DNA of 41,552 bases, from the NCBI GenBank assembly GCA_945900945.1, contig CAMDKL010000038.1, positions 1 through 41,552 of the forward strand, in the 5' to 3' direction. A program made the position numbers and the translations under genes. This DNA is from Pirellula staleyi DSM 6068 (GTDB lineage Bacteria > Planctomycetota > Planctomycetia > Pirellulales > Pirellulaceae). Positions 5,377 through 25,649 of the stretch are shown one piece after another. Under the pieces are notes generated by a model. The model was not told the DNA's origin. It saw only the letters and a list, made by a program, of their open reading frames with translations, and ran no database searches. Position 1 is the first letter of the stretch. The number at the start of each line of letters is the position of its first letter.

Positions 5377-6454
5377 ACTGGTTCGCTTTTTTGGTTGGAT
5401 TCGGAAAGGACAACTTCGGCCAGTTTGAGAATTTCCCCCTCTACTCCCGCCTCAAACTGGCTAACGTTTTCGGTCAAGAACTGCATGAGGCCAGCTCCCG
5501 ATTCTGTTTTTCGAGATTGAAGCATGGCAGTCCTGTGATAAAACTGGACTGATTCGATTGAGTCTCGTCCGCGTCCAACGCATCCAAATCGTAGAAGACT
5601 TGTTCCGCAGCTAGATGGGGCACCTTGACGTAGTGCAACCATTGGCCGTTCGACGCGATATCCATTCGTAGAGCGGCTGGCTCGTGTCCACGGATGGAGT
5701 CGCTCCTCGAACGACGCACGATATTCCCCGGATTAACCCACGTGGTTTGGCATCGTACTACGTCCGCAGAAGCGCGTCGGTGAATATGTCCGTTGGTCAC
5801 ATAGTCGATGCCGACCAGTTCATTGAGGTGCGTAACAACCGCCTCGTTTAGATTAGGAAAAGTCAGATCATGATGCGTCATCCAAACCACCAGACTAGGT
5901 TTGCTCACGGCTTTCCTCCACGTGTCGGATTGCTCATTGGAGAAACTTACTGGGTTTTGAAATATCAATTGAACTTTGTCCGGTTCAATAGCGAACGAAT
6001 CTGGGATAGGATAGCGGTAGGGTGAGCCCCCGATGGCCACCGTCCGCCCCTCAAAGGAGCATGCCCAAAGATGCTGTTGATCCAGCAAACGAATGGCACC
6101 GGCTTTGGCTAGGATCGTGAGGCTGTCGTTTTCATCCAAATGCGGATTCTCGCAATCGTGATTGCCGACGATCGTTGGAATGCATTGGCCTTCGAAAATA
6201 TCGAGCATGCGTGAGATGAGCCAGTTCGGGTTGTCTCGCGGCTTGTCAAAAATATCGCCGAGCAAGATCGGTTGCAGCTCATGTTGCATTACAAAGTTCG
6301 AATTGGAGTTGCGGGCGAGAATTTTTAAAGCAACTGCAACTGTACTTTTTCCAATGTTGTTTGGGCCGACCAAAACGGTTAGTCCGTCTGCAAGCTCGAG
6401 CTCGGTTTTGGTGTGAGCCATAAAGTTGGAAAGGACAATTTTGCAGATCATCAA
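5373..6454 (-). pseudogene. Chimeric AAA ATPase/metallophosphoesterase gene, truncated and frameshifted
   Basis: The first 59 residues are the start of an SMC/RecF-like AAA ATPase: ICKIVLSNFMAHTKTELELA and the Walker A GPNNIGKST at 30-38. From about residue 60 the product becomes a metallophosphoesterase: LLGDIFDKP, IVGNHDCEN, the histidine pair in WMTHHDL and NGHIHRR, which are calcineurin-fold metal motifs 2 to 5. The first motif (DxH) is missing, and so is the rest of the ATPase. The frame ends early at 5474, while MLQSRKTESGAGLMQFLTEN and a normal-looking tail continue in another frame to a stop at 5373 that overlaps the next gene as ATGA. A one-base loss near 5526-5530 would explain this. 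The likely ancestor was a phosphoesterase plus an ATPase gene, fused by deletion near 6277. Confidence 0.75.
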
Positions 6455-6543: not shown

Positions 6544-7119
6544 ATGAATATCAGCAATAAATTGACGGCAAAGGACGGAACAGTTGTTGACGGGGCAGCC
6601 GGAAACGGCGTTACGGCCGCCATAACTGCATTAAGTACAGTCGCTGCCGTAACAGACCTTTTTAGCCTCTCGGGTGGCAACGCGACCAAGGTCGCTGCCG
6701 ATGACGCGGGCATCAAGACGGGTGTCCTATCGGGTGGTACTGACACGGCAGCGACTACCAGAACACAATCGAGTGCTGACGGCGTTGTAGTCAATGCAAC
6801 CAATGGCCTTACATTCGATATCGACGCGATTGCGGGCGGATCATTTGACGGTGCTCGCGGAGCGGCAACCGACTTTACTTATACGATCGACCGAACAGAA
6901 TCGATCGGTGATATAACAACAGCAATCACTAACCCTTTAACGACCGCTGGAACCGATACACCAGTAGCCGGTGCTGCACGAGCTGGTTTCAAGCTGTCTG
7001 CTAAAGGGTTCTCGACAGGCCCAGTGGATGTCACCGTATCGACTAGCAACACAAACCTCGCCAAGATTAAGAACAATGGCAGCGCACTCAACCAGCTCGG
7101 AATCGCAACCACGAAGTAA
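6544..7119 (+). CDS. Orphan Ala/Thr/Gly-rich hypothetical protein
   Basis: A 191-codon frame whose product is almost wholly made of Ala, Thr, Gly, Asp, Val and Ser, with no Cys or Trp and very few aromatic residues. The composition and patches such as GGTDTAATT and VDVTVSTSNTNLAKI resemble the beta-rich passenger regions of surface proteins or flagellin-like variable domains. No signal peptide, anchor or catalytic motif is present, and the only candidate ribosome binding site (aggac) is weak. It may be an internal fragment of a large secreted protein stranded by rearrangement. It lies between two decayed genes, which favours that view. I recognise no family. Confidence 0.45.
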   Translation: MNISNKLTAKDGTVVDGAAGNGVTAAITALSTVAAVTDLFSLSGGNATKVAADDAGIKTGVLSGGTDTAATTRTQSSADGVVVNATNGLTFDIDAIAGGSFDGARGAATDFTYTIDRTESIGDITTAITNPLTTAGTDTPVAGAARAGFKLSAKGFSTGPVDVTVSTSNTNLAKIKNNGSALNQLGIATTK

Positions 7120-7646: not shown

Positions 7647-8459
7647 GTGACAGTGGAAAGACGATTTCGTTCGATTGATTTTAAAGGCCAAATGATCTTG
7701 CTCGGTACGGGTACAAGTGTTGGCGTTCCGGCAATCGGTTGCGATTGTGAAGTTTGCACAAGTTCGAACCCGCGGAATAATCGGACCAGGTCGGGGGCAA
7801 TATTGGGTCTGCAAGCTGGCAACCTGCTCTTTGACACTTCGCCAGACCTACGTCATCAGCTGCTGCGAGAAGGGATCGGGATGGTTCATTCCGTTGTGTT
7901 TACCCATGAACACGCGGACCACTTGCATGGGTTGGATGATTTGCGACTATTCCCTTTCGTACTTGGACATCCTGTCCCTTTGTATTGTGCAGAACTGGTT
8001 GAGACACGCATTCGCACGGTCTTCGATTACGCTTTCGATCGGAGAGAACCGACACACGCTGCATCTGCACCCCAACTGCAAATCCATCGGATTACGACAG
8101 AACCCTTTAAGGTGCTAAGCACTGTTTTGCAACCGATCCCATTGGTTCACGGTCCCAATTGCAGCGTATTGGGATTCCGCATTGGGCATATCGCTTACTG
8201 CACTGACACAAATTTCATTTCCGAGTCAAGTTTGGAACTCATGCACGGTTTGGACTGCTTGGTATTGGACGCATTGCGGTACACTCCCCATCCGACGCAT
8301 TTCTGCGTAGAGGAGGCTCTCGAAGTAGTAGCGAGGATCAAGCCCAAGATGACCTATTTAACTCATCTTTCACATGATCTCGACTATGACTCAGCGAACG
8401 CACGATTGCCTAAAAATGTGCAACTGGCCTACGATGGTCAACGGATCCCGCTAACCTAA
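7647..8459 (+). CDS. PhnP-like metallo-beta-lactamase-fold hydrolase
   Basis: A 270-residue metal-dependent hydrolase. The zinc motif HEHADH is at residues 87-92, with DTSPDLRHQLL upstream and TYLTHLSHDLDY near the C terminus supplying further ligands. The segment GTGTSVGVPAIGCDCEVCTS, with Cys32, Cys34 and Cys37, matches the structural zinc site of PhnP (cyclic ribose phosphate phosphodiesterase), so a phosphodiester substrate is plausible but not proven. The start is GTG at 7647 behind agga; ATG at 7692 is an alternative that begins exactly at the fold (MILLGTG). The next gene starts two bases after its stop, so they are probably cotranscribed. Confidence 0.85.
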   Translation: MTVERRFRSIDFKGQMILLGTGTSVGVPAIGCDCEVCTSSNPRNNRTRSGAILGLQAGNLLFDTSPDLRHQLLREGIGMVHSVVFTHEHADHLHGLDDLRLFPFVLGHPVPLYCAELVETRIRTVFDYAFDRREPTHAASAPQLQIHRITTEPFKVLSTVLQPIPLVHGPNCSVLGFRIGHIAYCTDTNFISESSLELMHGLDCLVLDALRYTPHPTHFCVEEALEVVARIKPKMTYLTHLSHDLDYDSANARLPKNVQLAYDGQRIPLT

Positions 8460-8461
8460 GT

Positions 8462-10366
8462 ATGAAATTTCCAATGCTCAAGGAACGAATGGAACAGGCC
8501 ATCGATCGTTTGCGATCGGATCTGGTTTTGCTCAAAGGATCGTCGAACCATTGGACAGGTACTCTTTCGACTTCAGCGCTGTCGACCGCCACCGCAGTAA
8601 GTGCGTTGTCCATTAGTCGGGATCAATTTCAAAAGAATCCATGGACGATCGAGAAAGGATTGAGCGGCGATTGCTATTCACCTGGTCGTTGGGATGAGTT
8701 GATTGAAAGCGGATCTGAATGGTTATCCCGTTCTCAAAATGCAGATGGAGGGTTTGGAGACACGGACCGGTCCCTGTCCAACATTGCGACGACGCTGTTG
8801 GTTTTGGCCGCTTGGCAGTTGGCTGGCCACAATTCTCGTTACTCCGCAAAAATCGTTGCAGCGCGGGACTATGTTGAGCGGTGCGGCAGCTGGGATGGAT
8901 TGCATCAACGCTACGGCAAAGACAAGACGTTCGTCGTTCCAATCATGACCAACTGTGCGTTGGCAGGACTTGCAGATTGGGACGCGATACCTACGCTGCC
9001 GTTTGAAGCTGCTGCGTTACCTCAGTCATGGTACCGATTTGTTCAACTGCCAGTCGTCAGTTACGCGATTCCAGCTTTGGTTGCGATGGGTCAAGCACAA
9101 TATTTCCACAATCCGCCACGAAATCCGATTGCGAGAATCGTGCGTTCGGTTGCGAGAAAACCGACGCTTCGGGTTCTAACGCGAATGCAGCCAACGAGTG
9201 GCGGATATCTCGAAGCGGTTCCGTTAACGAGTTTCGTGCTAATGAGTTTGGCGTCGATTGGTCATGGGGCTTCACGGGTGGCAGTAGAGTCAAGGAAGTT
9301 CATAGTCGACTCGGTTTTAAAGGATGGCAGTTGGCCCATCGACACGAATTTGGCAACTTGGGTGACATCGTTGGCTGCGGCGAATTTCTTCGATGCAACA
9401 GAATTGTTGGAGTGGGATCGGACGATCGACTGGTTGCTTTCTTGCCAACATCGAGAACGGCATGCATTTACGGGTGCGGAGCCAGGAGGTTGGGGCTGGA
9501 CGAATTTGAGCGGTGCGGTTCCGGATTCGGATGATACGCCCGCTGCACTTATTGCCTTGCGAAAATGGTTGCTCAACAGCGATGCCGCTCATTGCAAACT
9601 TGGAGAGGAGCGGTCGGTACTCGATCAAAACCGCCGCCTGCGAGTTCTAAATGCGGCAAGAACTGGCTGCCGTTGGTTGATTCGGTTGCAAAATCGCGAT
9701 GGAGGCTGGCCGACTTTTTGTCGAGGCTGGGGGACATTGCCATTTGATCGAAGCGGAAGCGATTTGACCGCTCATGCGATACGGGCTCTATCGATCTGGA
9801 ATGAAGTTTTTGGCAATGGACTCGTAATCCAAGGCTTCGATCGAGCGTTGGAACGCGGCTGGGAATACCTAGAAAAACATCAAAAGCCCGACGGCAGTTG
9901 GCTTCCCCTCTGGTTCGGAAACCAAGACCGAGCAGAGGAAGATAACCCAATTTACGGAACCGGACGTGTTTTATTGTGTTATAGCCAATGCAAACGCGCG
10001 GCCGATCCTGCGTTTCAGCGAGGCTTGGCGTTTCTGTTGGCGAGTCAAAACGCCGATGGGGGCTGGGGAGGAGGCAATAGCATCCACTACGACGGAACAG
10101 ATCGACCTTGGGGGGCGATCTCAAGTACAATGGAGGAAACAAGCGTTGCATTGGAAGGAATCCTTTCCGGAGGTGGCACAAATGATTGTGCCGACTCTAT
10201 AATGCGAGGAGTGAATTGGTTGTGCGATGGCATCCGGCAAGAGCATCACCTCGTCAGTCAGCCGATCGGATTTTATTTCGCTCGGCTCTGGTATCATGAA
10301 AAAATGTATCCACTTGTGTTTTCACTGGGTGCCCTAAAAAGAGGACTTGAGTTTTGTCAACGTTAA
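8462..10366 (+). CDS. Squalene-hopene cyclase-like protein (prenyltransferase/squalene oxidase repeats)
   Basis: A 634-residue protein built of alpha-barrel repeats of the terpene cyclase/protein prenyltransferase superfamily. QW-type repeats are visible as SQNADGGFGD (91-100), DGSWPID, DGGWPTF, DGSWLPLW and QNADGGWGGG. The class II cyclase protonation motif DxDD is present as DSDDT at 355-359, so a protonation-type cyclisation of an isoprenoid is likely. The overall length fits squalene-hopene cyclases (about 630-720), but the N-terminal half is divergent and I cannot say that squalene is the substrate. The gene follows the hydrolase by two bases and overlaps the start of the prenyl synthase fusion by 13 bases, which argues for joint function. 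Confidence 0.85.
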   Translation: MKFPMLKERMEQAIDRLRSDLVLLKGSSNHWTGTLSTSALSTATAVSALSISRDQFQKNPWTIEKGLSGDCYSPGRWDELIESGSEWLSRSQNADGGFGDTDRSLSNIATTLLVLAAWQLAGHNSRYSAKIVAARDYVERCGSWDGLHQRYGKDKTFVVPIMTNCALAGLADWDAIPTLPFEAAALPQSWYRFVQLPVVSYAIPALVAMGQAQYFHNPPRNPIARIVRSVARKPTLRVLTRMQPTSGGYLEAVPLTSFVLMSLASIGHGASRVAVESRKFIVDSVLKDGSWPIDTNLATWVTSLAAANFFDATELLEWDRTIDWLLSCQHRERHAFTGAEPGGWGWTNLSGAVPDSDDTPAALIALRKWLLNSDAAHCKLGEERSVLDQNRRLRVLNAARTGCRWLIRLQNRDGGWPTFCRGWGTLPFDRSGSDLTAHAIRALSIWNEVFGNGLVIQGFDRALERGWEYLEKHQKPDGSWLPLWFGNQDRAEEDNPIYGTGRVLLCYSQCKRAADPAFQRGLAFLLASQNADGGWGGGNSIHYDGTDRPWGAISSTMEETSVALEGILSGGGTNDCADSIMRGVNWLCDGIRQEHHLVSQPIGFYFARLWYHEKMYPLVFSLGALKRGLEFCQR

Positions 10367-12261
10367 CCCCACCTGATTTGATCCAAACCGCTCAGACACC
10401 GAACCCTACGGAGAAATCGGAAAAGAAGACGCGACGCAAAACCAGTCACCTGAAACTTGTTCCCGAGACGCCTCTGCTGAGGGAACAGTTGCGAGAGAGA
10501 TGCCGAGAAGTAGCGGCACGAATGAACAAGGAAATGCCCCCCACCAAAGATGAGCTTGAGGTCATTTCACGCCGAACTCTGGATGAGGCAGGGTTGTCCG
10601 AAGGCTATGTGGGTTGGATCATGGTGATGATCAGTACCGAGTTCTTTCGTGACGCGGTTGCAGCAACGCCTCCCAGCCGACGACTCTTCCTGCTTCCGCA
10701 CTGCTTGAAGCACGCTGAGGGATGCCCTGCCGATTACGATGAATTCGGTATGGACTGCAAAAAGTGTGGAGCATGCAGCATTGCAGACTTCCGAACCAAA
10801 GCCGAAGAGATGGGATACAAAGTCCTTGTGGCAGAGGGCTCCCCTGTCGTGCTGAAAATCATCGTGAGCGGATACGTTGACTCCATCGTTGGCGTTGCAT
10901 GCTTAAACGTCCTGGAAAAAGCCATCGACAAGATTTTACTTGCCGGCATTCCATGCATGGCTGTACCGTTGCTATCGAGCGATTGCCGAAACACGAGCGT
11001 CGACGAAGCCTGGGTTCGAGACATGATTATGGTCCAGAAACCAGTTGTGGAACAAAAGACTCGATCGTACGTCCATTTGATGCGTGGTGCCAGCGATTTG
11101 TTTTCCCAGCCTCAGCTTGATGCAATCGTGGGCCGGCAGCGAGGCCAGGCACAAATCAACATCGAGTCTGAAAATCCGCTTGAGGAAATCGATCCGATCG
11201 CTGCAACCGAAGCGTTGGCTACGAACTTCCTGGCGCGAGGCGGAAAGTATTCGAGACCCTTCATTACGTTAGCCGCGTTTGACGCCATGTTGGGCGGGAA
11301 AGCGACGGGTTCCGGGGGAGACAAAGTTGTAGCGAGCTTTTCGAGAGGTGTACAAAGCGCGGCACTGAGCATCGAGTGTTTCCATAAAGCGTCGCTCGTT
11401 CACGATGACATTGAGGACGGAGATGCGTTCCGCTACGGTATTCCAGCCATGCACCAGCAGTTTGGTCTTTCAACGGCCATCAACATCGGGGACTACATGA
11501 TTGGAATGGGGTACCGCTTGATCGGTCGAGAGATCGAATGCATCGGCTCGGCGGCGGCGGCAGAAATCCTCAATTGCTTGTCATCAGCACACATGCGTTT
11601 GGCCGAGGGTCAGGGCGCCGAATTGCTTTGGCGCGACGGTACCAACAAAAGACTGACCCCTCTCGATGCTCTGAAAATCTATGCATTGAAAACGTCCCCG
11701 GCCTTTGAAGCAGCGCTGTACACGGGAGTAAGACTTGCAGGTGACGCTGCCGCTTATTCTGAACCGATTAAACAGTTTGCAAGGAACATTGGAGTCGCCT
11801 TCCAGATAATCAACGATTTGCAGGATTGGCAAGGTGATGACCACAACAAATTGTCGGCTGCAGGCGATATCCTAGGGGGTAGACCGACCGTGTTGCTCGC
11901 ATTGGCACTGCAATCCCTTTCACCTGAGGATGCAGATCGACTTCTGAACGTGATGGCAATCGAATCAGGCCTCACGGATTCTTCGAGAGTGGCGATAGCG
12001 CGAGAGTTATTCGCGAAGGCGCGCGTTTTCGAACAAGCAGAAAAGCTGATTGATAGGCACCGCGAGCGAGCTGTCGAAATCGCGTTGGTCATTGAGCCGG
12101 AACCTTTAAAGCGACTGTTCCACTATTTGATCGATACTGTTTTAAGCGAGTCGGATATAAAAGGAATGCCCTCAAACGAGCCCGTCGTGGTCATGCACAG
12201 CATCGCAATGAAAACGGCTACAACACTTGTGAGTGCATCTGCTGAAGCCGCCCATTCATAA
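10354..12261 (+). CDS. DUF116 domain fused to polyprenyl diphosphate synthase
   Basis: A two-domain protein of 635 residues. Residues about 50-240 are a DUF116 domain with clustered cysteines (C117, C124, C135, C138, C141 in LPHCLKHAEGC and DCKKCGAC), suggesting a metal or Fe-S site. Residues about 280-615 are a trans-prenyl synthase of the farnesyl/geranylgeranyl type that condenses isopentenyl diphosphate. Its first Asp-rich motif is LVHDDIEDGD (DDxxD at 351-355); the second reads NDLQDWQGDD, with Asn in place of the first Asp. A Lys/Thr-rich disordered leader occupies residues 1-35. Translation starts at TTG 10354 behind gagga, inside the end of the cyclase gene. The product is probably the chain donor for the cyclase. 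Confidence 0.87.
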   Translation: MSTLTPPDLIQTAQTPNPTEKSEKKTRRKTSHLKLVPETPLLREQLRERCREVAARMNKEMPPTKDELEVISRRTLDEAGLSEGYVGWIMVMISTEFFRDAVAATPPSRRLFLLPHCLKHAEGCPADYDEFGMDCKKCGACSIADFRTKAEEMGYKVLVAEGSPVVLKIIVSGYVDSIVGVACLNVLEKAIDKILLAGIPCMAVPLLSSDCRNTSVDEAWVRDMIMVQKPVVEQKTRSYVHLMRGASDLFSQPQLDAIVGRQRGQAQINIESENPLEEIDPIAATEALATNFLARGGKYSRPFITLAAFDAMLGGKATGSGGDKVVASFSRGVQSAALSIECFHKASLVHDDIEDGDAFRYGIPAMHQQFGLSTAINIGDYMIGMGYRLIGREIECIGSAAAAEILNCLSSAHMRLAEGQGAELLWRDGTNKRLTPLDALKIYALKTSPAFEAALYTGVRLAGDAAAYSEPIKQFARNIGVAFQIINDLQDWQGDDHNKLSAAGDILGGRPTVLLALALQSLSPEDADRLLNVMAIESGLTDSSRVAIARELFAKARVFEQAEKLIDRHRERAVEIALVIEPEPLKRLFHYLIDTVLSESDIKGMPSNEPVVVMHSIAMKTATTLVSASAEAAHS

Positions 12262-12273
12262 CAGTACCATCGA

Positions 12274-12849
12274 ATGCAGACTCCCTCCGACGATTCTCAA
12301 CTCTCGCAATGCTATGACAAGTGCATATCAGCCAGCGAGCTGATAAGTATCTATTATCAAGATTCGAGCTTACTAGGTCGATTTGAGCAAGTCGAGAGCC
12401 AGGCAGTACCAAGCGTGTACCGCAAACTACTCGATCATTCCAATCACATGACGGTTACGGTTGAGTCCCATCATGCGGACAGCGTCGACGTAGAAGTGCT
12501 TCGATCGGATATTGTCGACGGGCACTATCGGCGGGAGATTTTGCTCAAAACTCATATTTCTCAGCGCGTCGTTCAATATGGCATTGTTCGGCTCTACACA
12601 AAATATTTGTCGGATAAACCTCGCGATGAAATCCTTCGCCAGCGCAAGCCGCTAGGGCGAGTCCTGATCGAGCACAATGTTCTGCGCGAGATCGAGCTGT
12701 TCGATCTACTGCAAGTCGAGTGCGGTCCGGTACTTTCCAAGTTCTTTGGCGTCGATCCCGGCACGATTGCATATGGACGTACCGCGTTGATTCATTGCGA
12801 TCATGAACCAGCGATCGAGCTACTAGAAGTGGTTCGACCTGAACCTTGA
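12274..12849 (+). CDS. Chorismate lyase-like protein (DUF98 type)
   Basis: A 191-residue cytosolic protein of the chorismate pyruvate-lyase fold, which splits chorismate into 4-hydroxybenzoate and pyruvate. The recognisable core is YRREILLKTHISQRVVQYGI followed by KPLGRVLIEHNVLREIELFD, typical of the DUF98 branch used for plastoquinone in cyanobacteria and proposed for methanopterin in archaea. It starts 12 bases after the prenyl synthase stop, with no strong ribosome binding site, and so closes the cluster. 4-Hydroxybenzoate is the classical acceptor for prenyl transfer, which fits the neighbours, but no UbiA-type prenyltransferase is in the window. Its last 49 bases overlap, tail to tail, the opposing HPt gene. 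Confidence 0.8.
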   Translation: MQTPSDDSQLSQCYDKCISASELISIYYQDSSLLGRFEQVESQAVPSVYRKLLDHSNHMTVTVESHHADSVDVEVLRSDIVDGHYRREILLKTHISQRVVQYGIVRLYTKYLSDKPRDEILRQRKPLGRVLIEHNVLREIELFDLLQVECGPVLSKFFGVDPGTIAYGRTALIHCDHEPAIELLEVVRPEP

Positions 12850-13106
12850 GAAACGGTGAACCATCCTCGCTCAACGAACTCTTTAATTACCGACTCAATT
12901 GCCTGTTCTAGTTTCTCCATGTCCCCATGATGAAACATCTCTAGTTGACCTTTTGCTGCGGAGTCCTCCAATCGGTCAGCAAGTTCTACGGTAGACTGAG
13001 CGTAAAAAGTCGCAACCCATCCTTTCAAGCGATGAACTGCAGATCGAGTATGAGTTACACTTTCGTTGGCAACCGCAGATTTTAGTTTGCTCAAGATTTG
13101 GCTCAT
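12801..13106 (-). CDS. HPt (histidine phosphotransfer) domain protein
   Basis: A 101-residue protein with the HPt signature SAVHRLKGWVATF, in which His25 is the phosphate-accepting residue and Lys28-Gly29 complete the motif. A second helix ADRLEDSAAKGQ and a third KLEQAIESVIKEF follow as in the four-helix bundle. It would relay phosphate between a hybrid histidine kinase and a response regulator, but no kinase or regulator gene is nearby. The N terminus is short compared with usual HPt proteins, and a Ser-rich tail ends the protein. A perfect 15-base palindrome touches the start codon. The 3' end overlaps the chorismate lyase gene. Confidence 0.75.
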   Translation of the reverse strand: MSQILSKLKSAVANESVTHTRSAVHRLKGWVATFYAQSTVELADRLEDSAAKGQLEMFHHGDMEKLEQAIESVIKEFVERGWFTVSQGSGRTTSSSSIAGS

Positions 13107-13305: not shown

Positions 13306-14727
13306 TTAGGGCTGTTCCTTTCGTTGCCTCGGTTTTCTAGCCAATCGATGATGCTTTTCGGGCCTAGTATGCATTCCCCATCGCAATGATTCGTCTTGCT
13401 CGTAGCGTTTCCCAAGCGTTAAAGCCGTCAGGGCCTTGGCTAGTTCGAATCCTAAATAGAACGCATGCGACTCGTCCACATTTCGGCACTCAGGCAGATG
13501 CATGAGTTCTTCCATCATAGAAAACGGATCAATTCCTTGGATGTGAACGCCCGCGCTGATCAGATGGATTTGCTTTCCGTCAATCAGTATTCGATAGTTG
13601 TTGTCCTTGATGTTGTTCGCAAGGACTTCGATGGTCGCAGCCGAATAGCTCACACGCGATGGATCTCGCAACATCACGAGCCGCTCTTCGAAGTGCTTAG
13701 GTGGAATCTTGTGACGGACCGCGTAGTTAACGAGCCGGCGAGCAAGGTCGCACTCCTTGACGCTCGACTGTGCCCATGGAATAACCTGTGTGGTGAGCAC
13801 GCTTCCGATTTGCAGCTCCTCGCAAAACCCAAGTAACATTGTATTGAGGCCAGCCGAATCGCAATCGGTCAGCTCGGTCAAATTCCCTATCCCCATCAAC
13901 ATCGAGGCGTCAGGAAACATGGCTCGCGTCCTCAAGTAGCGGCCCAGCGATGCTGCAAAGCCACATCCGATCGGCTCGAGAATCGGATCCAGTCGAAACG
14001 GAATTCTATGCTTGTCCAGATATTCCACTGTCTCGAACATTCCAGGTTCGAAATCAGATGTCTCGTCAGGAACAACAACGACTTCACAACCCCAATCTTG
14101 GGCCGCATGGCGATTGGATTTATTGATAGAAAGGACCAACGTCGCGCCGGCAGCGACGGCCGCAGAGGCTTCCCATGTATCAAAGGTGTCAATCGATAAA
14201 TGTATTCCTTGATCTCGCAATGCCTTGACGGCTTCAGCCATTTTAGTCCATTGCATACCCGGCTCACAACCCAAGTCGATTCGATCCGCACCGTCGTTGA
14301 CGAGTTGCTTTGCTTGCTCAACGAGTGCATCGACAGAAAGCCGTGACGCGTAGTTGATTTCCGCAATGATTTCAATCGAAAATTGACCGTAGTCATCTCC
14401 TTTGAATCGTTTACGACCGAACATGATAGGCAAATCTCGAACGTCTTTTGGGCCACACTCGATCGGCGTGGTAACGGCAGATCGGATCTCTTCGATTCCG
14501 GTTTGAAGGTAACCCGGGAGGATCACTCGCGTCGATTGCTCAGGAATACAAATATGTTTGAGCAACCATTGAGGCGTCATAAGCGCTGCCACCGTGATCG
14601 GCAACACCTCGATCGAGTACTCGAAGGCTTGTTTGCTTGCGATCGATGCTACAATCTCTCGCAGCGCAGGCTCAGCGAGTTTGCCTGTTACGAAGTGAAT
14701 CGACTCGCGTTGATTGCCCGAATTCAT
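13306..14727 (-). CDS. Dihydropteroate synthase-like protein (TIGR00284/DUF6513 type)
   Basis: A 473-residue protein. The N-terminal third (FVTGKLAEPALREIVASI, VAALMTPQWL) is the DUF6513-type extension. The middle is a pterin-binding TIM barrel like dihydropteroate synthase: ADRIDLGCEPG, LSIDTFDTWEASAAVAAGAT and DPILEPIGCGFA. The C-terminal part is of unknown function. Relatives occur in archaea and methylotrophic bacteria with tetrahydromethanopterin, so a role in making that folate analogue is the established guess. ATG at 14727 is chosen because MNSGNQRESIHFVTGKLAEP begins like relatives; the frame is open to 14784. It is divergent from rluA and is read toward the HPt gene. Confidence 0.82.
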   Translation of the reverse strand: MNSGNQRESIHFVTGKLAEPALREIVASIASKQAFEYSIEVLPITVAALMTPQWLLKHICIPEQSTRVILPGYLQTGIEEIRSAVTTPIECGPKDVRDLPIMFGRKRFKGDDYGQFSIEIIAEINYASRLSVDALVEQAKQLVNDGADRIDLGCEPGMQWTKMAEAVKALRDQGIHLSIDTFDTWEASAAVAAGATLVLSINKSNRHAAQDWGCEVVVVPDETSDFEPGMFETVEYLDKHRIPFRLDPILEPIGCGFAASLGRYLRTRAMFPDASMLMGIGNLTELTDCDSAGLNTMLLGFCEELQIGSVLTTQVIPWAQSSVKECDLARRLVNYAVRHKIPPKHFEERLVMLRDPSRVSYSAATIEVLANNIKDNNYRILIDGKQIHLISAGVHIQGIDPFSMMEELMHLPECRNVDESHAFYLGFELAKALTALTLGKRYEQDESLRWGMHTRPEKHHRLARKPRQRKEQP

Positions 14728-14910
14728 GGGTGCTATTTCTATACTGATGCTAAATAACTTTATTGCGTGAAGCCGGTTTACCACTTGACCGGCATCCCAT
14801 AAATACTAGAACATTATTATAACGAGAAGCCCAATGAGCTCGCTGTCATGATGACTCGAATTCGTGGCCGGTGCTTCTCGTTTTTTTTTGCCCTGATTGC
14901 ACCATCGTTT

Positions 14911-18224: not shown

Positions 18225-18325
18225 AGCATCGTGCGGAAAACAAGTGTCGCCTTTCGCTCGGCGAAAGGTGCGTTTTTCCATTCTTTCGCGAAGCGAAAGG
18301 CGACAAGAAAAGATCGCACGATGCT
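18225..18325. repeat. Interrupted long inverted repeat with two tandem small hairpins
   Basis: Two nested perfect arms are present: agcatcgtgcg (18225-18235) with cgcacgatgct (18315-18325), and tgtcgcctttcgct (18245-18258) with agcgaaaggcgaca (18292-18305). Inside, the same 7-base hairpin occurs twice, ctttcgc-tcg-gcgaaag (18251-18267) and ctttcgc-gaa-gcgaaag (18283-18299). The outer right arm overlaps the stop codon of the dehydrogenase gene, which is read leftward into the structure. It may act as a terminator or as a REP/BIME-like mobile palindrome. Confidence 0.7.
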
Positions 18326-19265
18326 AACTGCCAATTCGTTTCAGCACTGCGTCTAGTGTTGGCTTGATCGCAGCTGCACTGGACTTGAGTCCTTGTAACT
18401 CCTTGGGCCAAAGATCTATTTCTACTCGTTGTACCGCGCCAGCGACGCCAACGATTGTTGGTACCGAAATTGCCACGTCGCGAATGCCGTAACATGCACC
18501 GTCCTGTACCGTGCTCACTGGCAAGATGCGATGCTGATCCAGTGCAATCGCATGAATCACGTCTCGGATCGCGATACCAACCGCAAAGCCTGCTCCACCT
18601 TTTTTCGACAAACACTCTGCGCCCGATTGCTTCGTGCGCGCGAAGATCTTTTCCGCAATCGTGTTGTTCCAACCAGGGTATTTTTCCAACGCCAATGCCC
18701 CGACCGTTGCACTCGACCAAACCGGAATCATACTGTCGCCATGCTCACCCAATATCAAACCATGGGTTTGAGTCGGTGCCGTTTCTAATTGCTCGGCTAT
18801 CAAGGAGCAAAATCGAATCGTATCGAGCTGGGTTCCCAAGCCTAGTACTTGGCTAGAAGGTAGTCCCAATTTTTTTGCCGCAACGAAGGTCAAAATATCG
18901 ACTGGATTTGAAACGACTAGCACGATGGCACGGGACTTGGGGCCAGCTTTTTTGACTTCATCCAGAATTCCAACGAACAAATCGGTATTGCGATTGATCA
19001 AATCCAGGCGAGATTCTTCGGGTTTGCGCCGGAGTCCCGCAGTGATGCAGATGATGTCCGAAGTGGGAATATGCTCGTATCCCCCTGAAGAAATGCGTTG
19101 ATCAGCTACACTCGGGCCACCGTGCATGATGTCGAGCGCTTGGCCCGCTGCCAAATTCGCATTCAGATCTAGTAACGCAATCTCGCGCACGACTCCACCG
19201 CATTGCAAGGCGAAGCCTGCACAGGAGCCTACTAGACCACCACCGCCAATGATACTGACCTTCAT
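18324..19265 (-). CDS. Lactate/malate dehydrogenase family protein of the BMC locus
   Basis: NAD-dependent 2-hydroxyacid dehydrogenase of 313 residues. The Rossmann motif IIGGGGLVGSCAG starts the protein; NPVDIL, the Asp148/Arg151 pair in LGLGTQLDTIRF and the catalytic His175 in LGEHGDSMIPVW are present. In the substrate loop AGLRRKPEESRLDL, the place that is Gln in lactate dehydrogenases (NQKPGETR-type) is Arg80, as in malate dehydrogenases. In the planctomycete microcompartment pathway a lactate dehydrogenase role has been assumed; the Arg argues for caution. ATG at 19265 gives the standard N terminus; the frame is open to 19316. It lies last in the run of BMC genes. Confidence 0.88.
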   Translation of the reverse strand: MKVSIIGGGGLVGSCAGFALQCGGVVREIALLDLNANLAAGQALDIMHGGPSVADQRISSGGYEHIPTSDIICITAGLRRKPEESRLDLINRNTDLFVGILDEVKKAGPKSRAIVLVVSNPVDILTFVAAKKLGLPSSQVLGLGTQLDTIRFCSLIAEQLETAPTQTHGLILGEHGDSMIPVWSSATVGALALEKYPGWNNTIAEKIFARTKQSGAECLSKKGGAGFAVGIAIRDVIHAIALDQHRILPVSTVQDGACYGIRDVAISVPTIVGVAGAVQRVEIDLWPKELQGLKSSAAAIKPTLDAVLKRIGS

Positions 19266-19319
19266 GTTGTTTGCTATCCTGGATTGAATGTTACCTAAGT
19301 TTGATTGTGATTCCAACCT

Positions 19320-19374
19320 GAGCCGCAGGCGCTAGCCGCGTTATTTATGAGCCGTTGGGCGCTAACCCAATGGC
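19320..19374. repeat. GC-rich interspersed palindrome (REP-like)
   Basis: The gap between the dehydrogenase start and the aldolase stop begins with gagccgcaggcgctagccgcg (19320-19340) and a second hairpin, gccgttggg (19351-19359) with cccaatggc (19366-19374), one mismatch. The same word family recurs at 21542-21606, around 33820, and weakly at 15652-15672 and 19440-19462. It lies inside the presumed BMC operon and could affect mRNA processing. Confidence 0.6.
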
Positions 19375-19497
19375 ACACACTTTGATCCTTTGCTGCTAGT
19401 CTCGGACTGCGCATTAAGGCGACTTCTCAAGCAAATTCGGGCCCGGGTCTAGCGCCCACCGGTTCACGAAAACACAAAGCGAGTGCCATTGGCCGAA

Positions 19498-20430
19498 CTA
19501 TTGAGCAAGCTGCTTCATGACTTGTGCTGTAATCAGCTTGACTAATTCTTCTTGATCGATGCCTGCGAGGCCATTGGAGGATGTTTGTGAGTTCGCTGCC
19601 TTTAGCACCGGAGCGATTCCAGCCATCGATTGACTGACTGCCTTTTCCACTTGGCTAGCGCTCGATGCGGCTGGCATAGGTGGCGGGGCCGGGAACGCAC
19701 GACGCTGCACACCGGACTCCTTCCATGAATTTCGGAAAATGTCGTTAGCACACACATCGCAGTTCTTGTACTCCTCCGTATTTCGTGGATCGGACCAGCC
19801 CCACTTTTGCTTGAGCGTCAGCAATTCGCGTTCTTCCGTTTCACTGAAGTAAGACACGTTGCCCAACTGCCGGGCCAACATCAGAATACGGCAATAGGCG
19901 TCGAGGATCTCTGTCCACCAATAGGCTTGCTCCACATCGATGCCATAACTGACCGTACCATGGTTTGCCAAAATGATGACGTTTGTCTTTTCAACAAACG
20001 GCAGAATTGTTTCCGCAAAAGCCTTCCCTCCGGGGGTCTCGTACCGCGTGATCGGAACGTCCCCCAAAAACACCTCCACTTCAGGCAAAACGCACTGAGG
20101 AATCGGCTCACGGGCTACTGCAAACGCTGTCGCATGGGGTGGATGGCAATGGACGACACTTTTGATATCCGCTCGCTTCTTGTAGATTTCAAGATGCAAC
20201 AATGCTTCACTGGATCTTTTCTTTATGCCAGAAGTCTGTTTGCCACTCATGTCCATCGTGCAGATGTCTTCGGTCTTCAAGAACCCCTTGCTGTGCATTG
20301 TCGGAGTGCACAAAACTTCGTTGTCGCCAATCCGAACGGTGATGTTGCCGTCGTTTGCTGCGGCAAAGCCTTTGTTGTAGAGGCGGCGGCCCATTTCGCA
20401 AATGTCTTGTTTGATTTTGTGTGCATTCAT
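19498..20430 (-). CDS. Class II aldolase with C-terminal encapsulation peptide (L-fuculose/L-rhamnulose-1-phosphate aldolase)
   Basis: Splits L-fuculose-1-phosphate or L-rhamnulose-1-phosphate into DHAP and L-lactaldehyde, the signature step of the planctomycete/verrucomicrobial BMC. Of 310 residues, 1-230 form the zinc-dependent aldolase: catalytic Glu75 in RSSEALLHL and zinc ligands His94 and His96 in VVHCHPPHAT and His157 in ILANHGTVSYG. A flexible Ala/Pro/Ser-rich linker follows (about 232-285, starting FPAPPPMPAASSASQ) and then an amphipathic helix, DQEELVKLITAQVMKQLAQ, a typical encapsulation peptide that directs cargo to the shell. The enzyme therefore works inside the compartment. It is preceded by a BMC-P gene and followed by the dehydrogenase. 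Confidence 0.93.
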   Translation of the reverse strand: MNAHKIKQDICEMGRRLYNKGFAAANDGNITVRIGDNEVLCTPTMHSKGFLKTEDICTMDMSGKQTSGIKKRSSEALLHLEIYKKRADIKSVVHCHPPHATAFAVAREPIPQCVLPEVEVFLGDVPITRYETPGGKAFAETILPFVEKTNVIILANHGTVSYGIDVEQAYWWTEILDAYCRILMLARQLGNVSYFSETEERELLTLKQKWGWSDPRNTEEYKNCDVCANDIFRNSWKESGVQRRAFPAPPPMPAASSASQVEKAVSQSMAGIAPVLKAANSQTSSNGLAGIDQEELVKLITAQVMKQLAQ

Positions 20431-20534
20431 GTGAGTTGGTTCTCGGGTGAGATTCTAAAAGTCTGTGGGTTAGTTAATCGTTGGATTGAATGGATTGCGG
20501 GGCGATGTCCCTGCGGTTGAATCGGTATTGAAAA

Positions 20535-20810
20535 TTACACGTTCAGTTTGTCAATGATGGCAGCGTTGTAGGCATCGACTGGCTTTTGGCTTGGGCGAAA
20601 AGGCTGTGCGGCTTCAGCGCCATCGCTCACGGCGATGACCGAACCCTCCGATGCACCTAGGTCGTCCCAAACGACGACAAGGTCCGGTTCGTTGGGCTTC
20701 TTACCAATCCGTATCTCACCGTAAGCTTCGGCTGTCTTAAGCGAAGCACCAATGAAACTAAGATGGGATCGGCTAAGTGTGACCGTTCCATTGACTTGAT
20801 AAAGTTGCAT
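20535..20810 (-). CDS. BMC vertex protein, BMC-P (EutN/CcmL family)
   Basis: A 91-residue pentamer-forming shell protein that closes the vertices of the icosahedral microcompartment. The start MQLYQVNGTVTLSRSHLSFI, the central LVVVWDDLGASEGSVIAVSDG and the C-terminal AAIIDKL strand match the EutN/CcmL beta-barrel. It is one of three BMC-P genes in the locus, as is usual for this BMC type, and lies between the uncharacterised BMC protein and the aldolase. Confidence 0.9.
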   Translation of the reverse strand: MQLYQVNGTVTLSRSHLSFIGASLKTAEAYGEIRIGKKPNEPDLVVVWDDLGASEGSVIAVSDGAEAAQPFRPSQKPVDAYNAAIIDKLNV

Positions 20811-20828
20811 CTTACGTTTCGCTTTCGA

Positions 20829-21575
20829 TCAAGATTGGTTTTGCAAATGTTGAGAAAAACGCCTTGCAGCATTGCAAGCCGATGGGGCATTCCAAGTCTT
20901 TGCCGACAGTATCAAGAGATTGGTAGGAACCTCTCGCAATACATCGGTGAGCTCTGACCAGCTTGTCACGACGGCTGGTCGCAAAGAATCGTCGCGAGCC
21001 GCTTGCCAGCAAGTTGCATGAGGCGCGTTGACGATCGCGACTCCCGCTCGGTGTCCAGCACGCAAGCCGTCGGCGATCCTTCGCAACACGGAGGTATCGT
21101 CTGGGGCCTTTTCGCAAACGTTCGTTTGCATTGCGCAAAGCTGCTTCGCGATCGCAGGCATCCACGCGGGTATGCCTGCGACAAGTAAGCGTTGTGAGTT
21201 CACTGCAACATTATTGCTAGTCTCGAAACCCTCATCCTTAATTCGTTTGATTGCTGGGGCTCGAACAACGTCGATCTTCCATTCCTTGCAATAGTCTTGA
21301 GCCGCAGGCGTTAGGACGGACGAGGGTTCAATTTCCAATAGTTGAATGCCCATTAGCCGGCCTTTCAGTGACTGCAGGCTAACGACACTATCGGAAAGGC
21401 TGAGTGTCGCTGGCTGCGGCACCGCAGTGACTAAGGACGTATCGCTACTGGTCAAGATGGCGAGCACCCGACGAACGATCTTTTCTATTTCTGCAGCGTT
21501 GGTGTTAATAGTTGATGGTTGAAGGTTGAAAGTTGAAGGATGAGCCGTAGGCGCTGGCCGCGTTTTTAATCGCAA
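20829..21575 (-). CDS. Uncharacterised BMC-locus protein with encapsulation-peptide-like N terminus
   Basis: A 248-residue frame. Residues about 24-40 (NTNAAEIEKIVRRVLAIL) form an amphipathic helix like known encapsulation peptides, followed by a Ser/Thr/Pro linker. A segment SSVLTPAAQDYCKEW recalls the LTPSAR-type motif near the N terminus of EutT-like proteins. The C-terminal half (GLRAGHRAGVAIVNAPHATC, NLLILSAKTWNAPSACNAAR) weakly resembles RpiB/LacA-type isomerases; this is inference. The only canonical upstream start is TTG at 21575, lying inside a palindrome, and the first 22 residues are encoded by heptamer repeats. A start at ATT 21509 would give the natural N terminus (226 residues), so the original start may have been destroyed by the repeats. 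Confidence 0.7.
   Translation of the reverse strand: MRLKTRPAPTAHPSTFNLQPSTINTNAAEIEKIVRRVLAILTSSDTSLVTAVPQPATLSLSDSVVSLQSLKGRLMGIQLLEIEPSSVLTPAAQDYCKEWKIDVVRAPAIKRIKDEGFETSNNVAVNSQRLLVAGIPAWMPAIAKQLCAMQTNVCEKAPDDTSVLRRIADGLRAGHRAGVAIVNAPHATCWQAARDDSLRPAVVTSWSELTDVLREVPTNLLILSAKTWNAPSACNAARRFSQHLQNQS
21511..21538. repeat. Four tandem heptamers gttgaNN
   Basis: The units gttgatg, gttgaag, gttgaaa and gttgaag run head to tail without gap. They lie just upstream of the natural N terminus of the uncharacterised BMC protein (read leftward) and just downstream of a 21-base palindrome. Such ttgaaggttgaaagttgaag strings behave like simple intergenic repeats. Confidence 0.8.
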
Positions 21576-21606
21576 TTCAGGGCGTCGCGGCTAGCGCCTG
21601 CGGCTC
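21542..21606. repeat. 21-bp inverted repeat, GC-rich REP-like palindrome
   Basis: The arm gagccgtaggcgctggccgc plus g at 21542-21562 pairs with 21586-21606 (ending gcgcctgcggctc). The two differing positions both become G-U pairs in RNA, so a 21-base-pair hairpin with a 23-base loop can form. It lies between the BMC-P gene ending at 21637 and the uncharacterised BMC gene. It is the best-formed member of the palindrome family seen at 19320 and near 33820. Confidence 0.8.
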
Positions 21607-21636
21607 AAGAAAAAATCTTTTTTTCGTTTCGATGTT

Positions 21637-21897
21637 TCATGCATCGATCAGACCGAGGACAGACCAGCGAATTGGGCTATTCTCGACACCGAACTTTTCT
21701 CGCACTGCACCACCATCGCTGGTTAGCATGACAGTTTCGCCACGTCCGGCTCCTAAATGATCGACGGCAATCAAAGGTGGTCCATCTGGCGTCTTGCCAT
21801 CCGCGTGCAACGGCTGACAAACCAAAAGCTTGAGGTTCTCCAAGCTTGGATGTTTGACAGTCGAGGTCGCGTTTCCTAGTACTAGTGCTGATTGCAT
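21637..21897 (-). CDS. BMC vertex protein, BMC-P (EutN/CcmL family)
   Basis: An 86-residue pentameric shell protein. It begins MQSALVLGNATSTVKHPSLE and contains LLVCQPLH, LIAVDHLGAGRGETVMLTSD and SVLGLIDA, all typical of EutN/CcmL proteins, including the GAGxGxxV loop at the pore. It starts eight bases after the aldehyde dehydrogenase stop and is clearly in the same transcription unit. Confidence 0.92.
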   Translation of the reverse strand: MQSALVLGNATSTVKHPSLENLKLLVCQPLHADGKTPDGPPLIAVDHLGAGRGETVMLTSDGGAVREKFGVENSPIRWSVLGLIDA

Positions 21898-21905
21898 AAT
21901 GTTGT

Positions 21906-23375
21906 CTAGAGGTTACTTGTTCCTCCAAGCACGTGCAGGTCTTCGATCAATGAACAACGCCGTTCTCTCGTAAAGGTCAACGGCGTCGTCACACCCTCGC
22001 CGGTTGGACCCGCGATTGAGAACGACAAATAGCCTTCGCCACCCAAACCCAGGGACGCCATGCAGGGACCATTTTTCACAAACAACGTAGTGTCCATGAT
22101 ACGAGCCATCTTGGTCATATTGCGAACGTTGCGAGAATGAATGATGCTGGTGTGGCGGTAACCGTGCTCGGCTTGCTGCGCCAATAGGACTGCTTCATCA
22201 AAGTCTCGGCAGCGAACGAACGGCACGAACGGCATCATTTGCTCGGTGTGAACAAAGGGATGGTCCGATGTCGTTTCGCCATACAGCAATTCAACTTTAG
22301 GGTCGACCGTGCGACCGGCTGCTGCGGCCAATTTGATCGCATCTTGGCCCAAAAGCTCTTTTCGAGCTGCATAGTGTTTATCCGTACCCTCACCGACAGC
22401 TTGCAGGGCAGCTTGGGTTAGTCTATCAACTTCGGTTGCTGACAATCGCACCGCACCCGCTCGCTCCATGGCGGACATCATTGCATCAAAAACACTTCCC
22501 ACTACAAAGACTTCTTTTTCAGCGATACAGAGTAAATTATTATCGTATGCGGCGCCTTGAATGATGCATCGGGCGGCCAAGTCCAGGTCGGCTGTTTCGT
22601 CCACGACAACAGGCGGATTGCCTGGGCCGGCAACGACTGCTCGTTTTCCGCTGTTGAGTGCGGCTCGGGCAACTGCCGGGCCGCCAGTAACGCAAATCAA
22701 CGAGATACTACGGTGCTTGAAAAGTTGTTGTGCTGTCTCAAGTGTAGGTTCACAAATGAGTGAGATCAGATTGTCGATTCCAAGGTCTGCATAGATCGCT
22801 TGATTGAATCGGCGCACCCCTTCAGCAGCAACTTTTTTGCCGCTCGGATGTGGATTGACTACGAGTGAGTTGCCGCCAGCAATCATGCTAACGGCGTTAC
22901 CTGTGATCGTAGGTAGCGAGTGGGTTACCGGCGTAATGGCACCGATCACACCGAACGGTGCATGCTCGATAACGGCGAGACCGTAGTCACCGCTGAAACA
23001 CTCGGTTTTCAGGAACTCGACACCGGGAGTCTTTTCGCCAAGCGTTTTGAGCTTAGCGATCTTGTGCTCCAGCCTTCCCACCTTGGTCTCCTCCATCTCC
23101 ATCGTGCCGAGTTCGACACAGTTGTCGATCGAGATACGGCGAATATGGTCGATAATACGGCGTCGGTCGGCGATGGTTCGTTCGCGGAGTTGCTCGAAAG
23201 CGGTCCGGGCTGCCCGAACAGCGTCATCGACATTGTCGAACAGGCCGTGTCGGCCCATCGCCGAACGAAAGGACCCGGAGGATCCGGTCGTTGAGCTTTG
23301 GGAAGTCTGCTTGTTTCGAACTTCGCTAAGGACTTGTTCAACCACAGAGCGAATAAGATTTTCGTTGATTTGCAT
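21906..23375 (-). CDS. CoA-acylating aldehyde dehydrogenase of the BMC (PduP/EutE-like)
   Basis: Oxidises the aldehyde made by the aldolase (probably L-lactaldehyde) to its acyl-CoA, reducing NAD. The 489-residue protein starts with an amphipathic encapsulation helix, ENLIRSVVEQVLSEVRNK (5-22), followed by a Ser/Gly-rich linker (23-37). The dehydrogenase domain shows FGVIGAITPVTHSLPTITGN, GGNSLVVNPHPS, VTGGPAV and the catalytic Cys283 in AAYDNNLLCIAEKEVF. The length is typical of PduP/EutE enzymes. It lies between two BMC-P genes. Cofactor recycling could be by the dehydrogenase at the end of the locus. Confidence 0.94.
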   Translation of the reverse strand: MQINENLIRSVVEQVLSEVRNKQTSQSSTTGSSGSFRSAMGRHGLFDNVDDAVRAARTAFEQLRERTIADRRRIIDHIRRISIDNCVELGTMEMEETKVGRLEHKIAKLKTLGEKTPGVEFLKTECFSGDYGLAVIEHAPFGVIGAITPVTHSLPTITGNAVSMIAGGNSLVVNPHPSGKKVAAEGVRRFNQAIYADLGIDNLISLICEPTLETAQQLFKHRSISLICVTGGPAVARAALNSGKRAVVAGPGNPPVVVDETADLDLAARCIIQGAAYDNNLLCIAEKEVFVVGSVFDAMMSAMERAGAVRLSATEVDRLTQAALQAVGEGTDKHYAARKELLGQDAIKLAAAAGRTVDPKVELLYGETTSDHPFVHTEQMMPFVPFVRCRDFDEAVLLAQQAEHGYRHTSIIHSRNVRNMTKMARIMDTTLFVKNGPCMASLGLGGEGYLSFSIAGPTGEGVTTPLTFTRERRCSLIEDLHVLGGTSNL

Positions 23376-23393
23376 AGGTGTTTCGCGACGCTC

Positions 23394-23702
23394 TTATTGA
23401 CGTTTGTAAACGTTGTTTTTTTCGATATGAACAGTGTCGACTATGCCTATGATGACACAGTCGACGGGTAGTTTGCTCGTTTCCGGTGTGAATCGAGCGC
23501 TGCTACCTTGTGTGATGAGAACCATGTCGCCGACCCCGGCACCGAGTGTGTCAACGGCAATAAACGTTCGACCAGTGGTAACCAACTCAGCACGTTGGTT
23601 CGGCTCCAAACGAAAGGGTTCGACGACGAGCAGTTTTTGGCCGACCATCGTTTCCAACTTTTGCGTGGAGACAACCGCTCCTGTGACTTTCGCAACGAAC
23701 AT
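23394..23702 (-). CDS. BMC vertex protein, BMC-P (EutN/CcmL family)
   Basis: A 102-residue pentameric shell protein: MFVAKVTGAVVSTQKLETMV, LLVVEPFRLE, FIAVDTLGAGVGDMVLITQG and CVIIGIVDTVHIE are the expected strands and pore loop. The frame is open to 23792, overlapping the acetate kinase gene, but ATG 23702 gives the standard family start. It is the longest of the three BMC-P proteins and has the most canonical sequence. Confidence 0.93.
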   Translation of the reverse strand: MFVAKVTGAVVSTQKLETMVGQKLLVVEPFRLEPNQRAELVTTGRTFIAVDTLGAGVGDMVLITQGSSARFTPETSKLPVDCVIIGIVDTVHIEKNNVYKRQ

Positions 23703-23754
23703 AGTTCTGTCTCTTGGTAGGACTGAGCATGCAGCATAGACCGCATGCCGGTTC

Positions 23755-24942: not shown

Positions 24943-24970
24943 GGCTTATCTGCTACTCCTTTGCGAACGA

Positions 24971-25240
24971 TTACTTAAAGAACGCAGCAACAAGGCCCTC
25001 GGCGGGGCGAGGGATGATGTGGCTGCTAACCAACTCACCCACTTGCGATGCCGCTGCGGCACCCGCTTCGACTGCTGCTCGTACGCTGCCGACATCTCCG
25101 CTGACCATCGTGGTCACATAGGCACCGCCGATATCGACTCGCTTGACAATCTCAACGTTAGCCGCCTTGGCCATCGCGTCAGTAGCTTCGATCAAGGCCA
25201 AGAGGCCCTTGGTTTCGATCATTCCAATTGCATTTTGCAT
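24971..25240 (-). CDS. BMC hexameric shell protein, BMC-H
   Basis: An 89-residue single-domain BMC protein (PduA/CcmK fold) that tiles the flat facets of the shell. It has [40 protein letters not shown] and [20 protein letters not shown]. The lysine and pore-loop region fit hexamers that pass small polar metabolites. It is the second of two adjacent BMC-H genes and resembles its neighbour closely in the core, suggesting duplication. Confidence 0.95.
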
Positions 25241-25285
25241 GTTGCTTAAACTCGTGTTGTTGTAGGGATTTGTAGGTAGGTCCCG

Positions 25286-25332
25286 CCTGCCGGGCTGGAC
25301 GGTGTTTGGTCATCCAACCTGCCGGGCTGGAC
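25286..25332. repeat. 15-bp direct repeat between the two BMC-H genes
   Basis: The word cctgccgggctggac occurs at 25286-25300 and again at 25318-25332, with short differing sequence between. It lies in the 106-base gap between the BMC-H genes. It may be a fragment of a dispersed repeat. No secondary structure beyond this was noticed. Confidence 0.6.
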
Positions 25333-25346
25333 AATCGAATTGAACA

Positions 25347-25649
25347 CTACTCAGGCGAAGCCGCTGGTGCATTGATTTTGAGAATTTTATAGAGATCATC
25401 GTGCGGTCGAGCGATCACTTGGACGCTCATGACTTGCCCAATCCGTCCTGCTGCGGCGGCACCGGCATCGGTAGCTGCCTTGACAGCTGCGACATCGCCG
25501 CTGACGAACGCAGAAACCAATCCGCTGCCAACTTTGTCCCAGCCGAGGAACTTGACGTTCGCAGCCTTCATCATCGCGTCGACCGCTTCGATCAAGGCGA
25601 TAAAGCCTTTCGTCTCGATCATGCCGAGCGCTTCATTTACTTTTGCCAT
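25347..25649 (-). CDS. BMC hexameric shell protein, BMC-H
   Basis: A 100-residue single-domain shell protein with [40 protein letters not shown] and [18 protein letters not shown], followed by an Ala/Pro tail (INAPAASPE). ATG 25649 is preceded by ggag at the right spacing, so it is preferred over the upstream TTG, which lies inside that ribosome binding site. The tail lengthens it by about 10 residues over its neighbour. It is the first structural gene after PduL. Confidence 0.95.

Follow-up and report, generated by a model that had tools for sequence, protein, structure and literature searches.

A recurrent planctomycete gene cassette pairing a class II terpene cyclase with a DUF116–polyprenyl diphosphate synthase fusion

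Two described pathways are, by analogy, the nearest in logic to the gene cassette reported here. The Bacillus sesquarterpene (C35) pathway (HepS/HepT, YtpB, SqhC) forms a long-chain prenyl diphosphate that then undergoes cyclisation of the squalene-hopene cyclase (SHC) type (PMC7839719), and MstE of the cyanobacterial merosterolic acid pathway is a class II cyclase whose reaction starts with protonation of the prenyl chain (PMC9401909). The cassette was found in Pirellula staleyi DSM 6068, on a stretch of 41,552 nt that is one whole contig (CAMDKL010000038.1; contig C38 of genome G000) of a 6.47 Mb genome in 313 contigs, and is called the window below. Its core in the window is a class II terpene cyclase gene (SQC) followed by a gene (FUS) in which a cysteine-rich DUF116 domain is fused to a polyprenyl diphosphate synthase. 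The cassette is probably a class II terpene cyclase pathway, a known kind, with unusual partners. It resembles the Bacillus pathway in the predicted succession of long-chain prenyl diphosphate and SHC-type cyclisation but has recurrent DUF116, radical-SAM, ferredoxin and lipoyl-carrier proteins, and it resembles the MstE pathway in its predicted proton-initiated class II cyclase but has a facultative aromatic part and no dedicated UbiA that could be seen.

No description of this gene set was found in the literature excerpts searched, in agreement with the initial annotation of the window, which knew of no such pathway. A species-description paper assigns planctomycete clusters of polyprenyl synthetase and terpene cyclase genes to carotenoids or hopanoids (PMC8303584), and the cassette might explain part of these. 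The main text of a paper on essential genes of Planctopirus limnophila (PMC10632474) does not contain the terms 'prenyl', 'squalene', 'terpen', 'hopanoid' or 'quinone'. At least five proteins appear to be kept or lost together across the phylum, uniting a class II cyclase, a cysteine-rich domain, a radical-SAM enzyme and a lipoyl-type carrier, which points to a new lipid or cofactor. The cassette would also place DUF116 in a functional setting within this phylum; its product would be a biomarker candidate, and the system is testable in culturable planctomycetes.

Conservation of the core genes and their partners

SQC (8462–10366, + strand) and FUS (10354–12261, + strand) are the second and third of four same-strand genes in a row, with intergenic gaps of 2, −13 and 12 bp; in this the open reading frame (ORF) calls agree with the initial annotation. 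That annotation had read the row as a candidate new pathway, hypothetically leading to a cyclised prenylated aromatic compound or a modified cofactor, an interpretation that is partly supported. Linkage of the fusion to the cyclase recurs across the phylum, linkage to the last gene of the row (CPL, chorismate-lyase/DUF98 fold) is frequent only in the set of best relatives described next, and the first gene (MBL, a hydrolase) drops out of the conserved set.

Two sets of loci were compared. One comprises the best 80 of 584 relatives and leans to close relatives for that reason; several of its loci end at contig ends and were kept. The other, phylum-wide, consists of the window and of stretches of up to 19 kb surrounding the fused DUF116 matches of 56 of the 57 other genomes with FUS (G190 was left out), giving 57 loci, all of which encode FUS. 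SQC precedes FUS on the same strand by at most 400 bp in 67 of the 80 best-relative loci and in 29 of the 57 phylum-wide loci, the window counted, so that linkage of this pair is beyond chance. Anywhere in the locus, SQC is present in 70 of the best-relative loci and 50 of the phylum-wide loci, where it directly precedes FUS in 29 and stands two or three genes behind it in 19. Even close relatives can have the two genes apart, as seen in two loci of Pirellula relatives (L095, L096; FUS 76–77% identical) where CPL follows FUS and no SQC is found in the 10 kb upstream.

Other genes recur in the 57 loci, mostly on the same strand. A ferredoxin gene is present in 35, a gene for a GcvH-like protein in 34 and one for a prenyltransferase-toroid protein, TOR, in 27 (immediately downstream in 26). 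Genes for radical-SAM proteins were seen in 25 loci, for CobW-type GTPases in 24 and for NifS-type cysteine desulfurases in 9; all these families were assigned from representative members. Counted with profile models on the same strand, the figures are SQC 51, ferredoxin 39, GcvH-like 35, TOR 33, radical SAM 23, CobW 23, NifS 13 and CPL 6, and eight gene types share one strand in at least 10 of the 57 loci. The GcvH-like protein has its place in the cassette by neighbourhood. Wherever a GcvH-like gene is present in the best-relative loci (eight of them), it is accompanied by a same-strand HemN-like radical-SAM gene; on contig C1 of this genome the GcvH-like and ferredoxin genes are likewise preceded by one. 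The larger part of the system in this genome (TOR, radical SAM, ferredoxin and GcvH-like proteins) sits on contigs other than the window, with the radical-SAM gene on C114 and TOR on C8.

Co-occurrence was scored in 244 genomes of the phylum with a completeness of at least 85. FUS was counted as an open frame of at least 480 amino acids (372 at a contig edge for G190), SQC at 180 bits or more (next match 139), the ferredoxin protein at 100 bits or more (next 75, a second piece in G180), radical SAM above 500 bits (next 253), TOR at E ≤ 1e-15 and CPL above 80 bits (next 33). These thresholds were set after inspection of the match lists, and the genome sets were copied by hand for the statistics. 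With the limit set at E ≤ 0.001, 226 of the 244 genomes give a match to the SQC profile, in our reading mostly through other toroid proteins.

FUS is present in 58 genomes and is accompanied by SQC in 56 (FUS alone in G077 and G190; SQC alone in G009, G070, G161 and G180). The ferredoxin protein accompanies it in 57 (missing in G077; alone in G009, G070 and G180), TOR in 56 (missing in G077 and G190; alone in the same three genomes as the ferredoxin protein) and radical SAM in 54 (missing in G046, G077, G100 and G223; alone in G180). CPL was found in 38 of the 58, was absent from 20, and occurs in 8 genomes that have no FUS. The counts hold whether or not the parts are linked. SQC and the ferredoxin gene are retained even at a distance: in G222, on one contig, and in G242, on two, hundreds of kilobases or megabases separate them from FUS. 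Ten families, named by the labels of the search tool and collected by hand, mix FUS-positive (15) and FUS-negative (34) genomes. Some of the exceptions may reflect assembly loss of FUS, since the SQC match runs to the contig end in G009, G161 and G180, and the SQC contig of G070 also carries a DUF116 fragment behind SQC. From this distribution, SQC, FUS, TOR, the radical-SAM enzyme and the ferredoxin protein almost certainly form one functional unit.

One genome, G077, has FUS without a strong match for SQC, the ferredoxin protein, radical SAM or TOR, and is the only FUS genome in which all four are missing. Its fusion has lost four of the seven DUF116 cysteines (117, 135, 183 and 211 in the numbering of the window protein), all seven of which are present in the 56 other aligned fusions, that of the window among them. 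It retains the A-S pair and both Asp-rich motifs of the synthase half, and the genome keeps CPL. The joint loss ties the cysteine cluster to the other partners, as far as a single case can, and the same single case suggests an additional, independent use of the synthase half.

Predicted properties of the encoded proteins

SQC has both domains of the SHC superfamily (SQHop_cyclase_C 7.5e-25, SQHop_cyclase_N 3.5e-11) and the DxDD motif, and is by these features a class II terpene cyclase. The motif, which the initial annotation had reported as kept, reads PDSDDT and is aligned with DxDD in squalene-hopene cyclases of solved structure; its residues D355, D357 and D358 are invariant in all 23 aligned SQC proteins. 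The SQC profile matches the solved enzyme 1gsz at 3.9e-42, with the DxDD and the TAH histidine aligned. SQC shares with the SHC family the fold family, DxDD, the conserved histidine and QW-like repeats (those of SQC by eye) but forms a clade of its own and is partnered by a DUF116-fused prenyl synthase. Twenty-two SQC and 12 planctomycete SHC-type proteins separate into two clades (100/100) with a mean identity of 25% (range 21–30%), and SQC scores 88.9 bits with the squalene-hopene cyclase equivalog TIGR01507 (cut-off 431.1), consistent with a distinct subfamily. Several of the SHC-type proteins come from genomes that also hold SQC. In this genome no other strong SHC-type gene was found (next best 39.6 bits).

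FUS carries the DUF116 domain (PF01976, 1.1e-38; 132.6 bits, gathering cut-off 25) at its N-terminus and the polyprenyl synthase domain (PF00348, 5.3e-41) in one frame. Two Asp-rich motifs place the latter among the trans-polyprenyl diphosphate synthases: DDxxD is present in 57 of 57 fusions, and the second motif reads NDLxD in the window and, by eye, DDLxD in part of the family. An A-S pair precedes DDxxD in all 57, as in one other synthase of this genome (on C6) and unlike another (on C3), these being the two compared; a further synthase lies on C2. The positions before DDxxD are ones we take to mark long versus short prenyl chains.

The DUF116 half was modelled with moderate confidence (predicted local distance difference test, pLDDT, 75.5) and has a predicted Rossmann-like alpha/beta pattern, and its sequence has no match to solved chains below E 0.5. 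With no solved relative and a model of this quality, its description as probably an iron-sulfur (Fe-S) domain rests on the cysteine pattern. The literature excerpts searched for DUF116 gave nothing related. Stand-alone DUF116 genes were seen by eye in three loci of one family (L006, L011, L026), between methionyl-tRNA-formyltransferase-like and RsmB-like genes and with a peptide-deformylase-like gene upstream; judged by these neighbours, this is a different DUF116 context.

TOR is a protein of 300 amino acids whose closest solved relatives are beta subunits of geranylgeranyltransferase-2 (3.9e-16) and terpene cyclases; its profile matches MstE weakly (0.0088), and no complete zinc triad was seen by eye. 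The ferredoxin protein has two 4Fe-4S motifs and an N-terminal part that resembles, by eye only, the N-terminus of HdrA. All NCBIfam matches of the radical-SAM protein are below cut-off; its solved relatives include SkfB (1.5e-20) and tetraether synthase (2.2e-8). The GcvH-like proteins match solved H-proteins at up to 1.5e-29 and keep the lipoyl-lysine motif ExxKA (E74, K77 and A78 invariant in 17 of 17). They resemble the glycine cleavage H-protein in this motif and in a profile match over most of their length, but a member scored with the NCBIfam model for GcvH reached 68.6 of 117 bits, and they are linked to the cassette.

No Pfam or NCBIfam family matches CPL (12274–12849, + strand) at E ≤ 0.01, and the protein was placed by its predicted structure (AlphaFold2, pLDDT 92.2). 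The best fold match of the model is the DUF98 protein AF1396 (2nwi, 2.1e-8), followed by GntR/UTRA effector domains (from 1.2e-5), some of which rank ahead of chorismate lyase with bound product (1fw9, 2.6e-5). The model has the UbiC/DUF98 fold; CPL is like chorismate lyase and DUF98 proteins (UbiC, AF1396) in fold, but its sequence lacks the family matches, its fold is common to UTRA regulators and its activity is putative. R87, R106, G128, R169 and E185 are invariant in 44 CPL proteins. CPL follows FUS within 400 bp in 75 of the 80 best-relative loci and in 6 of the 57 phylum-wide loci, and is, by distribution, a facultative partner that joins the core in some lineages.

The initial annotation expected a UbiA-type transferase outside the window, and two UbiA proteins were indeed found in the genome (other prenyltransferase families were not searched), neither being evidently dedicated to 4-hydroxybenzoate. 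One scores 235.8 as a heme O synthase, above the cut-off of 210.3. For the second, on C54, only the general ubiA_other model is above cut-off (222.8 against 180.8); among the models below cut-off, that for 4-hydroxybenzoate octaprenyltransferase gives a higher score (215.5 against a cut-off of 364) than those for MqnP (192 at most, cut-offs 375–430). The gene of this second protein adjoins UbiX-type and MqnE genes, both above their cut-offs, suggesting futalosine menaquinone synthesis. The protein is not clearly MqnP and could use 4-hydroxybenzoate beside a menaquinone role.

Candidate product and competing explanations

With moderate confidence, the cassette is read as making a cyclised isoprenoid, either a polycyclic isoprenoid lipid or a lipid cofactor. 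The synthase half of FUS would build a long all-trans prenyl diphosphate, and the DUF116 half, served by the ferredoxin protein, would act on this product or pass it on, reductive loss of the diphosphate being one concrete possibility. SQC would protonate the far end of the chain through DxDD and fold it into fused rings. TOR may hold the isoprenoid or process it further, and one or more radical-SAM enzymes may tailor it, with the lipoyl carrier as a redox or sulfur arm. CPL, in some lineages only, would add or support a step related to 4-hydroxybenzoate. A more specific version, tentative and rather unlikely in full, is a lipid-cofactor pathway in which an Fe-S DUF116 strips the diphosphate reductively with electrons from ferredoxin, SQC forms the rings, and radical SAM and a dedicated lipoyl carrier join or sulfurate the product to give a polycyclic redox lipid of Planctomycetota.

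Several observations weigh against the cyclised isoprenoid or against the unity of the cassette. The Fisher p values, between 1e-47 and 8e-51 for the four core partners and 4e-22 for CPL, take no account of relatedness. In G161 a partial SQC stands at a contig edge and the other parts are absent. Few partners were found at 10 kb or less from FUS in the 80 best-relative loci (radical SAM in 20, of which 8 on the same strand, ferredoxin in 10, TOR in 9, GcvH-like in 8). The DUF116 model, only moderate in confidence, has no fold match among solved structures at E ≤ 0.001, and we know of no link between radical-SAM or lipoyl-carrier proteins and this kind of terpene cyclisation.

That the genes are adjacent by chance, or through general co-expression, is highly improbable: MBL is an example of such a neighbour at this locus, but the near one-to-one co-occurrence in 244 genomes extends to genomes where the parts lie apart, and the joint decay in G077 also speaks against it. 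Closer to the initial annotation is a meroterpenoid route, in which 4-hydroxybenzoate from CPL and the polyprenyl diphosphate from FUS would be joined by an aromatic prenyltransferase and cyclised by SQC, as by MstE in merosterolic acid synthesis (PMC9401909). The position of CPL directly behind FUS in the best relatives, a fold that includes chorismate lyase, the weak match of TOR to MstE with its precedent, and the higher score of the C54 UbiA with the 4-hydroxybenzoate model are in its favour. Nearly all FUS genomes keep SQC, however, also among those 20 that lack CPL, 8 genomes have CPL without FUS, and G077 has CPL but no strong SQC match; of the two UbiA proteins found, one is a heme O synthase and one stands beside the UbiX- and MqnE-type genes. 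A 4-hydroxybenzoate head group is therefore not obligatory, the route is unlikely as a general explanation, and an aromatic product is possible at most in some lineages.

It is likewise doubtful, and quite unlikely overall, that the system matures a protein or redox cofactor, with the GcvH-like carrier or the ferredoxin protein as target and SQC and TOR as isoprenoid-binding or isoprenoid-modifying helpers that release no free lipid. The invariant lipoyl-lysine motif, the radical-SAM, cysteine desulfurase and CobW GTPase genes of many clusters and the resemblance of TOR to protein geranylgeranyltransferase beta subunits would fit, but SQC retains the class II catalytic motif and TOR lacks a complete zinc triad by eye. 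Less likely again is that SQC is another squalene or hopanoid cyclase and FUS a housekeeping prenyl synthase. SQC is of SHC type with DxDD and, as the genome has no other strong gene of this type, could be its only one, and the synthase half kept without SQC in G077 may have a second role. Against this stand the separate clades, the low identity and the presence of both types in several genomes; moreover, the constant partner is a prenyl diphosphate synthase, and the others look like redox and radical proteins.

Other genes in the window

MBL (7647–8459, + strand) encodes a metallo-beta-lactamase-fold hydrolase (Lactamase_B_2, 2.2e-34). Its best NCBIfam model is 'GPMC system MBL fold' (301.7 bits, cut-off 360), and PhnP scores 97.6 bits (cut-off 272); with both below cut-off, the phosphodiester-like substrate proposed initially is putative. 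Apart from the window, MBL was found only in L094, the closest relative among the best 80 of 584 (86% identity); it is linked in 1 of the 80 best-relative loci and in none of the 56 other phylum-wide loci, some of which end at contig ends. By this distribution it is a co-directional local neighbour outside the cassette. A promoter and terminator scan gave 6 and 6 sites, compared with 4.8 and 6.8 in shuffled sequences.

An ORF with an Hpt domain (12801–13106) overlaps the end of CPL by 49 bases. Beyond it, on the minus strand, lies a gene for a dihydropteroate-synthase-like (DHPS-like) protein (13306–14784; TIGR00284 151 bits, cut-off 256.65; DUF6513; DUF4346 just below cut-off), of a kind presumably linked to tetrahydromethanopterin. 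A role for CPL in that direction was considered and rejected, as the gene occurs in none of the 56 other phylum-wide loci (by simple gene picking).

Upstream of the row, an ORF on the minus strand (5474–6454) has an AAA_15 N-terminus followed by metallophosphatase-like stretches below cut-offs, and is possibly a chimeric or broken gene. It is followed by an ORF on the plus strand (6544–7119) for an Ala/Thr/Gly-rich protein of 191 amino acids with no Pfam match at E ≤ 0.01. Further downstream, the minus strand of the region 18324–27285 carries class-II-aldolase-like, aldehyde-dehydrogenase-like, acetate-kinase-like, PduL-like and dehydrogenase-like ORFs with a DeoR-type regulator and, from the translations of the longer ORFs viewed by eye, looks like a bacterial microcompartment locus.

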